Source of the DNA: Tritrichomonas foetus
Lineage: Eukaryota; Parabasalia; Tritrichomonadida; Tritrichomonadidae
Length of the DNA: 64,000 nucleotides
Direction of reading: 5' to 3'
Assembly (NCBI GenBank): GCA_001839685.1
Contig: MLAK01000694.1
Span: forward strand, 8,736 to 72,735
Both the position numbers and the translations under genes were made by a program. Under the pieces are notes generated by a model, which was not told where the DNA came from, made no database searches, and was given only the letters and a program-made list of their open reading frames with translations. Below are positions 44,753 through 50,470 of this stretch, one piece after another. The number at the start of each line of letters is the position of its first letter. Within the stretch, counting starts at the first letter, position 1.

Positions 44753-46225
44753 CAAAGTTTTGGGTAGAACAAATTAAGTTAAACGTACAAATTTTAAATG
44801 CTTTGAATTTTTTTAATGAGGCATTGAATATTTTCAATAAGAAATGGAAGTTTTGAATAATAATTGAATTATCAAAAAGTTTTTTGACATATAATGTAAA
44901 TGCTATGGTTTTGGGAAAAATGAATCGTGAATAGGTTTTAAAATATAGAAATAAAGAAAATATGAAGATATGAATTTTCTGGCAGATGCAAACCATTGTG
45001 GTTGAACTTTGGGTTGTCCTCTATTGAATGGAAATTATCTCTTGCATATACTTCACTAATATGAATAGTCATTAAAAAACAATAATAGAAATTGATTTTT
45101 CGAAATATATCAAAATAAATTGAATAACCAACAGTCTTGTTGGTATTGCAGTATATGTTTTACATTTCAGTTTTACATGAGTTTTATAAATAATAAATTA
45201 CAAAATCTTCAATTTTGGAAACGTAAAAAATGTCTTTCTAAAAGTATTGTACCCACCAGGCCACTTTTTCAAGACAGCATTCAAAAATTTATTCCAAAAT
45301 CAAATAAGTTGAATGCAATGACTTTTTCTATACTTAATACAAACCAAATACCAAAAAAATACAATAAAAGAAATGAATTAAAGAAATATACAATTTTTAA
45401 TAAAGCCTTCATCAATAGGCTTTTTCTTTCTTTCTTTAAACATAAGTCTTCAATATTATGAGTCATTTTATTAGTTTGTAATAATTAAAATCTGGAAAGT
45501 TTCTATCTAAAAACGACCAAGCATTTCTATTTCTGAACAACATGAATTATAATTGCGTTAACAGTGTAAAGTAGTTAAAAAGTGACTTCTATTTCGGGTC
45601 AAAATTGCATTCAAAAATGGACACTCAATTTAATTATTGAAAAGGAAGAAATCGGGGACATTCTATAAAAATATTTTTAGTGTTTTTTCTTTGAAGATAC
45701 ATCATATAATTGCATAGTAAATGAATCTAACAACAATTTCCCAAGAAAAGCTCAAGAAAACAGATAAAGCGTAAATATATAATTGAATACTTTCAAAATT
45801 GAATATAAATATGGTCAAAAAATAATGTTTGAGAACTTTACGTGAAATAAAATGAATTAAAGCATCAAAATCCATAGAAATCTAGTCAAACACATTGAAA
45901 AAGTGAAATCACTCACTTTTTCTATCACTCATGATTTGGTTTACATCAAACGTCATTTCCCCCACTGGTGGTATTAAAAAGGAGGGTTTTTATTGTTTTG
46001 AGCCACCATAGAACAAGTGTAAAATAATCGTCATGCTTTGAAAAAGTTTATATTTATTTCTAGACAAGGTGAAAACTATTTCCGATTTCACTTTATGTCA
46101 ATTGAAATTAACTCAGTTTTTTATTGTCGTTCATTGAAAATCATATGAATGTTTCAATCAATATTGTTGATTGTGAAATGACTGCTTTTGGTCATTGAAT
46201 TAGCATCTATCAAAAAGTGTGGGGG
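44753..46225. other. Divergent intergenic region
   Basis: AT-rich 1.5 kb spacer. It contains a basic 94-codon ATG frame at 45177-45461, listed separately, and nothing else clear. Confidence 0.45.
45177..45461 (+). CDS. Small basic open frame, hypothetical (94 aa)
   Basis: A Lys/Asn/Ile-rich frame of 94 codons (MSFINNKLQNLQFWKRKK onward). Its composition is what random AT-rich DNA gives. A TTTCAGTTTT lies upstream, but no good initiator. I list it only because it is the longest frame in the spacer. Confidence 0.15.
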   Translation: MSFINNKLQNLQFWKRKKCLSKSIVPTRPLFQDSIQKFIPKSNKLNAMTFSILNTNQIPKKYNKRNELKKYTIFNKAFINRLFLSFFKHKSSIL

Positions 46226-47656
46226 ATGAATGCTTTCTACAATTCTTTCATTATATTCCTTTGTGAAATTATTGTATATACATTCCAATGTAACAAGATG
46301 ATTGAATTAACGAAAAGATATGCAGAATATCAAAGACTTCCCATTCTCCAAAATATAAATATAACCAGGCAAAGGTTTTGGGAAGAATTTCTAAATAGAA
46401 ACATTACAATGACTTATGATGATGCAAAATATCTTATTCAAAATAAATATAATCAACTCTGTAGTTTTTCTGGTAGAATAAACCCTTATCCTGAACCTTT
46501 TGATTATGAACAATATATTCCTATTCATTCACATGGAACACTAAAAACTGAACAAGATTTTTTCAAGTACATCGAGTTTGCTTCTCTGAAAGACATCCAT
46601 GGACAAAATGTTGAGAAGCCTTTTAATGAAACATACATTCTGATTTATGCATTAACTGTTTATAAGAATCCAGTTCAAATACGTCGTATGATTCTTGCCA
46701 TGTCACATAAGGGTCAACATCCTTCAATTTCTAAACATTTTGATCATTCAACAATTAAAAATTCAACAATTCAAAATTCATTTCAACAAAACGCAACAAT
46801 TCTTAATTCAACTATTCATAAGTCAATAACACAAACAATGAATCCAACTAAAAGAGACAAAATAAATAATACAAAGAAAGTTGCATTCATTCTATATGTT
46901 GATATAAAAATGAATATTCAATCTGTAATTGAAGAACTTCAAGATTTGAATGATATTTATTTTGTTGAACCAAGATTCAATGTTTTCTGGGGACATATTA
47001 CACAAGCTGTTAGTCAGCTAGTTTTATTGTCAAGTGCAGCTATTTATTTCCCTAATTCATTGTATGTTTCATTTCACAGTGAATCTGATTATCCACTTCA
47101 ATCGACAGAATATATTCTTGAATTTTTAGAACTTTTCTATCCTATCAATTATGTTGGAGTGAGGAATCTAGAGCCTTATACAGTTCGAAGATTGAGAAAG
47201 ATGCATTGTCGCTATCCACATTGTGAACAACATATTAAATGTTTACAAAAACTCTTCCCAAAACGATATGAAAAACCAGGTCTTAATTATGGAAAAGGTT
47301 CAAATTGGCCAACAATCACAATTGAATCTGCAAGAACAATTCGTAATTTTGTATTAAATGATCATTATTTACTTAATTATTTAGATTATGCAGCCCATCC
47401 AGATGAAAATATATTTCAAGTAACATTTCGAACATTAAATTTAAGTATCAGTAAACATGGTAATATCCGATATATTGTTTTCGAAGGAGCACACCCTTTT
47501 ACAATTGATGAAAAACGATTAGAAGATGCGTTGAAATATGAATGTAAACTTTGGGCTCGAAAATTCCTTCCAGATAAAAGTGATGAAGCAATTCGAATTC
47601 TTCATGAACGAATTAAAACCATAAATATCACGGAACGACTTTTAAAGTGTGCTTAG
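46226..47656 (+). CDS. Core-2/I-branching-type glycosyltransferase (GT14-like)
   Basis: A 476 aa type II membrane protein. A short N-terminal hydrophobic anchor (about 5-22) puts the catalytic domain in the Golgi lumen. The domain resembles family GT14, which adds beta-1,6-linked GlcNAc or xylose: ILYVDIKMNIQSVIEEL, then FNVFWGHITQAVSQLVLLS (about 250-270), the SESDYPLQ motif equivalent to SGQDYPL, GSNWPTI and HPDENIFQ equivalent to the SPDE(H/T)xxQT motif. An Asn/Thr/Ser-rich insert with repeated NSTI-like motifs (about 175-205) splits the domain, and several N-glycosylation sites are present. The start is the first ATG (MNAFYN); an upstream GTG was not used. A surface-glycan role is inferred. 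Confidence 0.82.
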   Translation: MNAFYNSFIIFLCEIIVYTFQCNKMIELTKRYAEYQRLPILQNINITRQRFWEEFLNRNITMTYDDAKYLIQNKYNQLCSFSGRINPYPEPFDYEQYIPIHSHGTLKTEQDFFKYIEFASLKDIHGQNVEKPFNETYILIYALTVYKNPVQIRRMILAMSHKGQHPSISKHFDHSTIKNSTIQNSFQQNATILNSTIHKSITQTMNPTKRDKINNTKKVAFILYVDIKMNIQSVIEELQDLNDIYFVEPRFNVFWGHITQAVSQLVLLSSAAIYFPNSLYVSFHSESDYPLQSTEYILEFLELFYPINYVGVRNLEPYTVRRLRKMHCRYPHCEQHIKCLQKLFPKRYEKPGLNYGKGSNWPTITIESARTIRNFVLNDHYLLNYLDYAAHPDENIFQVTFRTLNLSISKHGNIRYIVFEGAHPFTIDEKRLEDALKYECKLWARKFLPDKSDEAIRILHERIKTINITERLLKCA

Positions 47657-47802: not shown

Positions 47803-47810
47803 TGAAAGAA
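47803..47810 (+). repeat. Target site duplication, left (TGAAAGAA)
   Basis: The same 8 bases occur at 49122-49129, directly outside the two ends of the element at 47811-49121. Confidence 0.7.
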
Positions 47811-47824
47811 TAAGTCTTGACAAA

Positions 47825-48010
47825 GTTAACCAACCGGTACAACCCTTAACCGTTAACCAAAAAATAATTCGCAAAGGCTAGCCTAACCTTATTGTTAGTC
47901 AGAATAACCGCAATTTTGGTTAACCAAAACCTTTAAGTCATTGTCAGATTAACCAATAAATAAATGAGCCAAAAGGTTTTCAAAAGTGACATCTGACTTT
48001 TTGTTAACCC
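47825..48010. repeat. Left subterminal TTAACC array
   Basis: TTAACC-type motifs occur at 47826, 47846 and 47853, then a perfect 16 bp palindrome TTTTGGTTAACCAAAA at 47914-47929, and further copies near 47949 and 48004. ATCTGACTTTTTGTTAACCC at the inner edge has an inverted counterpart in the right array. Confidence 0.75.
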
Positions 48011-48936
48011 AAAACGTCAGAAATAATTATAGAATCAATATTAACTCATATATTATTAATTCTAGGTTGTAAAAGTATTAAAACATTTATAAAGAATGAA
48101 ATAACATCTTTATTAATATTTTCATGTGAGAATACACAACAATTAAGATTTATTTACGATCATTTTGATTATTATGAATTCGATTTATTATATTCAGAAA
48201 TGTGAAAATTTTAAAACTAAAAGAATAGAAAGTCATCATTATATAAGGAAATGTGATTGTTCAAGTTACAGAAAGTGGAGATACTAATATTGTGGTGTGA
48301 TTTATTTCATTAATGAAACAAATTATTTTCTTAATTGCTTCTTTCATGTTTTATATATATATATATTTCTTCCATATATTTTTCAAGTATATCCATTGTT
48401 GAATCATAATTTAAACTTATTTGTCGTCTGTTTTCTTCGTCTACTTTATCTTCAAATCGTTTTAAACATAAACAACTTTTAGTAGTGGAATTGGATATCA
48501 TTTAAAAAAATAAATCTTATTTAGTTTATGTGTTGGTCATTGACAAATTATAGTTTTTTTGTTGGGATACCATAAGTTGAATCCATCAGTTGTATGAAAT
48601 TCTGTATTATAATTTTTAATTGGTTCTATTAATTTTAATTCATTTTATGAATAATTTAAATAATTAATTTAGTTTGATAATTGTCAAAATTATTGAAATG
48701 AGTTCAATTGCTTTATTTCTTTGTTATTTAACAATCATTGAAACATTAATGATAGGTATTATCGAAATCATTGGAAAATAATGGTGATGGAAAGTTTCAA
48801 AATTCGGCTTCTTCTTCCATTCTGACATATATTTCACTATTTTTCTTTATATTAAATGTATTACATTACTTGTAATTGAAGTTTATCTGTAAAAAAAGAA
48901 ATAATTCGAAGTTTCAAACTTTTTCAATTATCAATT

Positions 48937-49098
48937 ATTAACCAAAAAACCTATCGTTCGGTTGGTAAAGGGTTTTTGGTAAACCAACCAAATGGTTAAC
49001 CTTTAGTCAGATTTTTGGTTAACCATCGAGAGGTTCAACCTTCTCTATTGTTCGGTTTGGTTAACCAATCGGAAATTATGGCACTTTTTATGGTTAAC
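48937..49098. repeat. Right subterminal GGTTAACC array
   Basis: GGTTAACC or near copies occur at 48938, 48994, 49017, 49057-49068 (TTGGTTAACCAA, a perfect 12 bp palindrome) and 49092. The phrase AGTCAGAT next to them mirrors the left array in inverted orientation. Confidence 0.75.
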
Positions 49099-49121
49099 AG
49101 GGCCATTTTGGCCAAGGCTTA

Positions 49122-49129
49122 TGAAAGAA
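49122..49129 (+). repeat. Target site duplication, right (TGAAAGAA)
   Basis: Identical to 47803-47810, immediately outside the right end of the element. Confidence 0.7.
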
Positions 49130-49184: not shown

Positions 49185-50470
49185 TAGGGTGTCCGGTAAT
49201 GTGATGTCACTANGNNTAATANAGTCATTTCTAATAAGTCATTTTTTATTGATAAGTATTTCAAAATATGTAGTCTCCATTGGCATCAATAACTTTTTTC
49301 AGTCTATTTTGCCATTCTGCAAAAACTGAAAACAAAGTTTCCGATGGAATTTCATTGAAAATTTGGACTATTGTTTGAATCAAATGGCTTGGTGATTCAA
49401 AAACAATTCCTTTAACTTTTTCTTTAATAGTTCCAAATAAAAAAAAGTCGCTAGGCGCCAAATCAGGTGAATATGCCGGATGTGGAACTGATTCTAGTGA
49501 GTTTTCATTTATATATTTTTTGACAATTTTTGCCACATGAGGCTTTGCATTGTCATAATGAACAAATAATTTTTTATAATTATTCGAGTTTTTAAACTCA
49601 ACAATTTTTGACATAATGGCTGTAATATAATATGCAGCATTAAACTTTTCATTTGGCGGCAAAACATCAATATGAATTATCCCATGAGGGTTCCAAAATA
49701 CAGTCACCATAAATTTAGTGATCTGAAACCCTGGATTTTGNTTGGGATTACTGAGTTTTCAGGAATCCATTGTGTATTGAAATCAGTCTTGGAATAAAAC
49801 CAAGACTCATCTCCTGTTATTAAAAAGGTGAAATTAGTTTTTTGTTCTGCATTCAAAATTTTAAGAAGTTTTTTTGCCAATAAAACTCTATTGGCCTTTT
49901 GATTTTCTGTTAGAATATGTGGCACCCATCGAAGATGCACATGTTTATACATTAATTTTGATGTTAAACGATCATAAATTGTCGATTTTGGTTCACCTAA
50001 AACATTAGCAATATATCGACACGATGAATGTGGAAATTCGGTTAAAACATCTAAAATTTTCCAGTCAAGAATATCATAACTTTGGCACTTTTTCTCTTTT
50101 TTCACAGGCTGTGTGTTTTGACTTCTGTTCAGTTCTGCCATGACTCGGTAGATTTGTCTTTGAGACAAACATTTTTCTTTCAAGACACTCTTCATTTCTT
50201 CATATATTTCTTTGCCCCTTTTTCCTTCAAGCTGCAGAAAAGTTATGATTGAATGTTGATCAATCATTTTTTAATAAACGTGCATCGTGTACGTTTATAA
50301 ATTATTCTTTTTTTTTATGAAAAAGATTCTTTATCTCTATTTTCAGTCAAGAGAAAAAAAAATTGTTTTCAAAATTTTTATGTTAACATTGCATAGTTTA
50401 TTATTTATAAATATAATGTATTGATTNCNCTTCTAATGTNGGTAGTGACATCACGCCTCCGGACACCCTA
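49185..50470 (-). mobile_element. Mariner transposon (1286 bp)
   Basis: The element has 28 bp terminal inverted repeats (49185-49212 and 50443-50470), identical at 24 of 28 positions; the four differences are one block. Both begin TAGGGTGTCCGG and are flanked by TA, the mariner target duplication (49183-49184 and 50471-50472). A transposase frame fills the minus strand. Size and repeat length are close to Tvmar1 of Trichomonas vaginalis, a known mariner. Seven unresolved bases lie just inside the two repeats and one in the transposase, as expected when reads from many copies are merged in assembly. Confidence 0.93.
49261..50267 (-). pseudogene. Mariner transposase, frameshifted at an ambiguous base
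   Basis: The transposase starts at the ATG at 50267 and ends at 49261. The N-terminal part holds helix-turn-helix DNA-binding regions (GKRGKEIYEEMK, LSQRQIYRVM and a second one around SCRYIANVLGEPKSTIYDRL). The catalytic DDE/D triad is intact: TGDESWFY, HYDNAKPH, and the last Asp in YSPDLAPSDFF. The last two Asp are separated by 34 residues, the mariner D34D signature. The frame changes between about 49704 and 49741, and an unresolved base N lies at 49741, so the break may be an assembly error and not a true mutation. Without that, all motifs are present. Confidence 0.9.

Follow-up and report, generated by a model that had tools for sequence, protein, structure and literature searches.

The window, a 64 kb stretch of the Tritrichomonas foetus genome (C304:8736-72735 in an assembly totalling 63.7 Mb), contains a 1311 bp element that is probably a non-autonomous member of a T. 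foetus hAT lineage, carrying Maverick cargo and moved in trans. T. foetus is a parasite of cattle. The element belongs to an old and decayed family whose other copies are dispersed in the genome. What seems new is a hAT-like non-autonomous family with Maverick cargo; the kind of element is known, and the combination is a variant of it. On the sequence evidence, the DNA of one mobile parasite, a Maverick, appears to have been carried and dispersed in a trichomonad by another, hAT-like one.

Ends and subterminal arrays of the element

The element spans window positions 47811-49121 and has TGAAAGAA on each flank, at 47803-47810 on the left (read directly and located by script) and at 49122-49129 on the right (read directly). 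At the composition of the window, two 8 bp stretches in fixed places would be identical by chance with a probability of about 4e-5. The duplication measures 8 bp if both ends of the element are taken to start with TAAG, which is the placement that makes the ends symmetrical. The left terminal inverted repeat, TAAGTCTTGAC (47811-47821, plus strand), was read directly and has similar left ends in other copies; the right one, TAAGCCTTGGC when read inward (49111-49121, minus strand), was located by direct reading together with an end-pattern search. These outer 11-mers are identical at 9 of 11 positions. The flanking repeat, the length and the imperfect inverted ends, all claimed in an earlier note made from the sequence alone, were confirmed by this reading. 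Its inference of a trichomonad family agrees with the genome, and no coding capacity was found in the element. A Pfam search of the element in six frames, with X at stops, matched no family. The neighbourhood holds a 485 aa open frame (46199-47656), which stops 154 bp upstream of the element and matches Core-2/I-Branching enzyme below the threshold, and a mariner-like element (49185-50470) that lies about 55 bp beyond it, is flanked by TA and has 26 bp inverted ends with four mismatches and a partial Transposase_1 match.

Inside the ends, hexamer counts define two arms on the plus strand: seven TTAACC/GGTTAA hexamers fall in the left 226 bp (47811-48036; 31 per kb) and eight in the right 201 bp (48921-49121; 40 per kb). 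There are none in the 884 bp between the arms and 0.35 per kb across the remaining window, where the maximum outside the element is two per 230 bp. Two perfect palindromes were read directly within the arms, one of 16 bp with GGTTAACC at its centre (47914-47929) and one of 12 bp, TTGGTTAACCAA (49057-49068). The octamer GGTTAACC occurs four times in the window, each time inside the element, against 0.26 expected, and four was reached in none of 100 shuffles. Both palindromes and the subterminal arrays described earlier are upheld, and the hexamers are restricted to the element's ends. When motif columns were compared with other columns among the other copies, identity was 0.85 against 0.77 in the left arm and 0.77 against 0.79 in the right arm, which gives no consistent sign of constraint on the motif.

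Maverick/Polinton DNA in the interior

The middle of the element is not featureless but mostly Maverick-derived, a captured fragment that the earlier note had missed; the rest of the note's sequence description holds. The segment covers about 714 bp (48037-48750), with approximate bounds set by similarity to two other contigs: that to C438 begins near element position 227 and ends near 940, where that to C734 ends as well. C438 matches the element over positions 227-958 of 1311 only. An ATPase remnant at 48035-48139 (plus strand) corresponds to the final 35 residues (205-239) of a C438 frame (E 6.8e-4, 54% identity), and a decayed gene with seven stops at 48264-48641 (minus strand) corresponds to residues 2-129 of a 129-aa C438 protein (E 7.3e-24, 47% identity); one of the C438 proteins is listed as TRFO_29210 of T. 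foetus. The ATPase frame on C438 has Walker-type motifs, read by eye, and matches Pox_A32 (23.5 bits at a cut-off of 22.8, E 4.4e-5); the 129-aa gene follows it on the opposite strand. C438 itself gave no DNA polymerase hit. On C461, homologues of the ATPase and of the 129-aa gene lie no more than 10 kb from an 1129 aa open frame that has a DNA polymerase B domain. An ATPase, the 129-aa gene and DNA polymerase B form the set expected of a Maverick/Polinton, and it is by these three taken together that the cargo is called Maverick. Long uninterrupted DNA polymerase B frames were also noted at C461:45294-55017, there alongside the ATPase and 129-aa genes, and at C645:37155-38459. A protein search returned 110 relatives, a single one of them with a species name, T. 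foetus; in viral contigs there was no relative of the 129-aa gene and no match to a left-end pattern.

Maverick sequence is present in 12 of the 13 independent copies that include an arm and are long enough to judge (the window copy, the copy borne by a TTAA-flanked repeat, and those on C292, C238, C904, C168, C1, C371, C187, C350, C943, C945 and C144). Copies that are too truncated (C146, C842, C377, C205) or that show a Maverick part without an arm (C438, C734, C374, C115:102613) fall outside this count. The exception is C144, whose junction falls, by eye, at a motif copy and therefore fits a deletion; a form that predates the capture is the alternative. A foreign coding fragment thus lies inside non-autonomous ends and has been amplified with them as a unit, which is what defines a Pack-type element. 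Between the Maverick segment and the right arm is a motif-free, element-specific spacer (48751-48920). A second capture was considered for this spacer and rejected, as its 30 matches are all on contigs with family copies. For annotation these results counsel caution, in that Maverick gene matches in T. foetus may be the cargo of a short transposon.

An interior that is mostly Maverick DNA would also be expected of a doubly deleted Maverick derivative, in which the arms are Maverick termini and a Maverick integrase moves the element. We consider this very unlikely. The duplication is 8 bp and not the 6 bp given for Polintons in the available part of PMC10045372, and C461, C326 and C645 are absent from the element's DNA matches. 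With up to three mismatches allowed, the 21-base end patterns matched nowhere on C438, C461, C326 or C645, a comparison with these contigs as a whole rather than with mapped Maverick termini, and the C144 copy consists of arms alone.

Copies across the genome

A search of the genome with the element's DNA gave at least 51 matches (40 of 41 candidates scored), which fall into two main classes: a copy borne by a TTAA-flanked repeat, and independent decayed copies with about 65-89% identity to the window copy over the matched parts. Left ends similar to that of the window copy were found on C238, C904, C168, C371, C945, C292, C144 and C146, and a diverged one on C187; right ends of independent copies are on C1, C377, C292 and C144. 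Among these copies the outer bases are similar and the flanks unrelated. The earlier note had named similar ends with different flanks as the pattern to look for, and this is present; a single copy, the outcome that would have spoken against a family, is excluded.

The 8 bp duplications anticipated at other copies were seen in part. The C292 copy has both ends, measures 1001 bp and is adjoined by ATTCTATG and ATTCTATT, a duplication matching at 7 of 8 positions; it and the window copy (8 of 8) are the only two-ended copies with a duplication. The C144 copy (280 bp, arms alone) has both ends, and a duplication looked for beside them was not found. A partner duplication was likewise sought for C238, C904, C168, C371, C945, C1, C377 and C187, with none convincing. 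C521 and C860 fall outside the copies read, and C146 outside the duplication check.

Many of the matches have another history. The most numerous ones were spread by a TTAA-type transposon, which the earlier note had missed, and not by the hAT-like family itself. At 13 of 16 right-end pattern sites the copy runs to element position 1311 and is followed by an identical flank, GTGAAATATGG (the 16 rows of the flank listing represent 13 places). Wherever its left side is readable the copy starts at element position 137, at six of the 13 places and at six more (C410, C127, C200, C262, C1006 and C1016). Its host is a repeat about 3.14 kb long, with 95-100% identity in aligned pieces, whose right end is CATCACTTCACCGGAGTTTATCCTTAA; the DNA beyond that end differs in all 12 loci listed, and at two loci the left end, which is inverted, was read as well. 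The repeat is a younger TTAA-type transposon carrying one truncated old family copy. It is represented by L047:3880-7019 (C172), flanked by TTAA and with inverted ends GGATAAACTCCGGTGAAGTGATG, and by 12 further right-end places; the listed copy contains no frame longer than 89 aa.

With 13 of the 16 right-end sites inside one TTAA-flanked repeat, it might be argued that no transposition unit exists, and that a chance 8 bp repeat surrounds a Maverick relic, which the TTAA element and segmental duplication have spread. The independent ends already contradict this reading: eight further left ends have similar outer bases and unrelated flanks, and the 7 of 8 duplication at C292 has a chance of about 1e-3 by arithmetic from the per-base match rate. 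We regard it as scarcely credible.

Some copies have internal deletions. C904, C168 and C371 each have a large left-arm gap bounded by two AACC/TTAACC motif copies (C371 has a further, less clear gap). As the gaps run between motif copies, internal loss may be favoured by the arrays themselves. On C187, another TTAA-flanked element (L033, about 442-1818) sits at a CCCTTAA site in the left arm of a family copy; its inverted ends begin GGGCATAGTTTAGC.

The earlier note had also predicted that a longer copy would share these ends and encode a transposase. No transposase gene with the element's ends was found in the genome by element DNA, by right-end and left-end patterns or by the arms-only copy from C144, which as a DNA query gave three matches, none giving a transposase gene. 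A 14-base end pattern with two mismatches had 220 sites against 179 for a reversed control, so that most of its sites are due to chance; among those listed, 11 were read and two are family members (C144 and C146). As no gene with the exact ends was found, we infer movement in trans.

hAT elements of the same genome and related systems

A profile search of the genome gave 11 hits to the hAT dimerisation domain and four to MULE domains. Merlin was rejected on zero hits for PF12762 (IS1595-type transposase). The hAT ends were located by comparing hAT loci with one another. The element at C967:98628-101410 is bounded by the terminal inverted repeat TAGGCCTGGG at either end, has an 8 bp duplication, CATATAAC, on its flanks and contains a hAT dimerisation domain; its reported 622 aa frame contains unknown bases because about 1.5 kb of the element is an assembly gap. 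One end each of this type was found on C83, C311 and C615, with different flanks. The palindrome TATCGATA occurs four and five times in the two outer 230 bp of the C967 element and not at all in 700 bp of its interior.

We also scanned for palindromic hexamers, excluding those made of A/T only. None of 248 window controls reached four per 250 bp (the maximum, three, occurred in three controls), and the 1311 bp element gave four GTTAAC. ATCGAT reached four to six in four of five C967-type stretches and three in C83; at the other loci the counts were five (TTCGAA, C739), three (C121, C108) and two (C553, C203, C155), in a comparison that somewhat favours the loci, as they were scanned in overlapping steps and the control was not. 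Given the matching arrays at C967-type loci, the element's end architecture is that of a C967-type hAT with another motif. The two families, alike in their ends and distinct in their palindrome arrays, form a natural pair in which to study how a transposase tells its own family apart.

The terminal sequences agree less evenly. The 11-mer TAGGCCTGGGC of the C967 hAT matches the right end of the window element at 9 of 11 positions; over the two C967 ends the right repeat scores 9 and 8 of 11, and the left one 7 and 6. Of ten of the 11 hAT loci (all except C1016), read for about 1.5 kb on each side, none has such an 11-mer together with the element's arrays. Four of these ten (C83, C108, C203, C155) contain an 11-mer one mismatch from the end pattern, which on C155 lies within the coding domain. 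A near-match common to C108 and C553 was rejected as an end, being part of an internal stretch shared by both, and a search of C108 for inverted ends with an 8 bp duplication gave no convincing pair. A second hAT pair (L070 and L072, on C121 and C739) has an end that appears to be TAGGGATTCCG, with TTCGAA and GGTACC palindromes nearby. On C155 (L074, about 1401-1500), two GTTAAC palindromes next to the hAT dimerisation domain may point to a relative that has the element's motif.

The hAT class is favoured by the 8 bp duplications of the window and C292 copies, by the resemblance of the right repeat to a hAT of the same genome and by subterminal repeated motifs, putative binding sites, in both the window family and the C967 hAT. 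Against it stand the two-ended C144 copy without duplication, the poorer match of the left repeat and the lack of consistent conservation at the motif columns; in addition, the fifth base of the element's end differs from the G of the hAT terminal consensus. The earlier assignment to a hAT-like family is thus backed by a hAT in this genome whose end architecture matches, and not by a transposase with the same ends. These data support GGTTAACC as the putative motif of a non-autonomous hAT family.

A non-autonomous MULE with the same Maverick cargo, or another element making duplications of about 8 bp (P, KDZ/Zisupton or Merlin), is an unlikely alternative to a hAT, though one with points in its favour. 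MULEs typically take up foreign pieces, MULE domains are present in the genome, and hAT elements are not the sole makers of 8 bp duplications. Duplications of 4-10 bp are given for IS256 and MuDR together in the available part of PMC10045372, and with those MULE domains 8 bp alone does not exclude a MULE. However, MULEs of Trichomonas vaginalis have duplications of 10-14 bp in the table part of PMC2725143, and the nearest terminal match found, among the hAT loci ends compared, is a hAT.

On the hAT reading, an ancestral hAT mini-element would have picked up a Maverick segment before multiplying. A hAT transposase supplied in trans may have bound to the inverted ends and, as a dimer, to the palindromes, and its cut-and-paste of the element would have left the 8 bp duplications. 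The family would later have become immobile and decayed, an extinction suggested by the age of the copies. A far bolder proposal, to which we give very little credence, is that the Maverick cargo was kept stable in the hAT mini-element, its copies across the genome acting as RNA source loci against Mavericks. If true, this would be a transposon-borne defence against Mavericks. A further part of that proposal is that trichomonad hAT families may diversify by exchanging palindromic octamers (TATCGATA, GGTTAACC), with ends that stay nearly unchanged.

The suggestion that the family may be undescribed is borne out within the titles and abstracts searched, which contain none such; subscription papers and Repbase lay outside that scope. 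In the main text of PMC11415386, 'hat', 'maverick', 'mite' and 'mutator' occur zero times.

Compared with known systems, the element shares an 8 bp duplication, short inverted ends and palindrome arrays inside the ends with the hAT superfamily, of which the C967 hAT is the nearest found. It differs from that hAT in lacking a transposase, in having GGTTAACC in place of TATCGATA, in its Maverick interior and in its ends. Pack-TYPE and Pack-MULE elements are non-autonomous inverted-repeat elements with captured foreign coding DNA; here, in contrast, the cargo comes from a virus-like Maverick and not from a host gene, and the ends are hAT-like and not of MULE type. MITEs are likewise small elements with no coding capacity, inverted ends and dispersed copies, whereas this element measures 1.3 kb, has an identifiable cargo and exists in few, strongly decayed copies. 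Mavericks/Polintons supply most of the interior (the 3' end of the ATPase and the 129-aa gene), as decayed fragments only; they differ from the element in duplication length and size, and its ends were not found on the Maverick contigs. The TvMULE families of T. vaginalis (PMC2725143, available part) are also trichomonad DNA transposons with inverted ends, but their duplications, as given in the table part of that source, are longer than the 8 bp of the window element.
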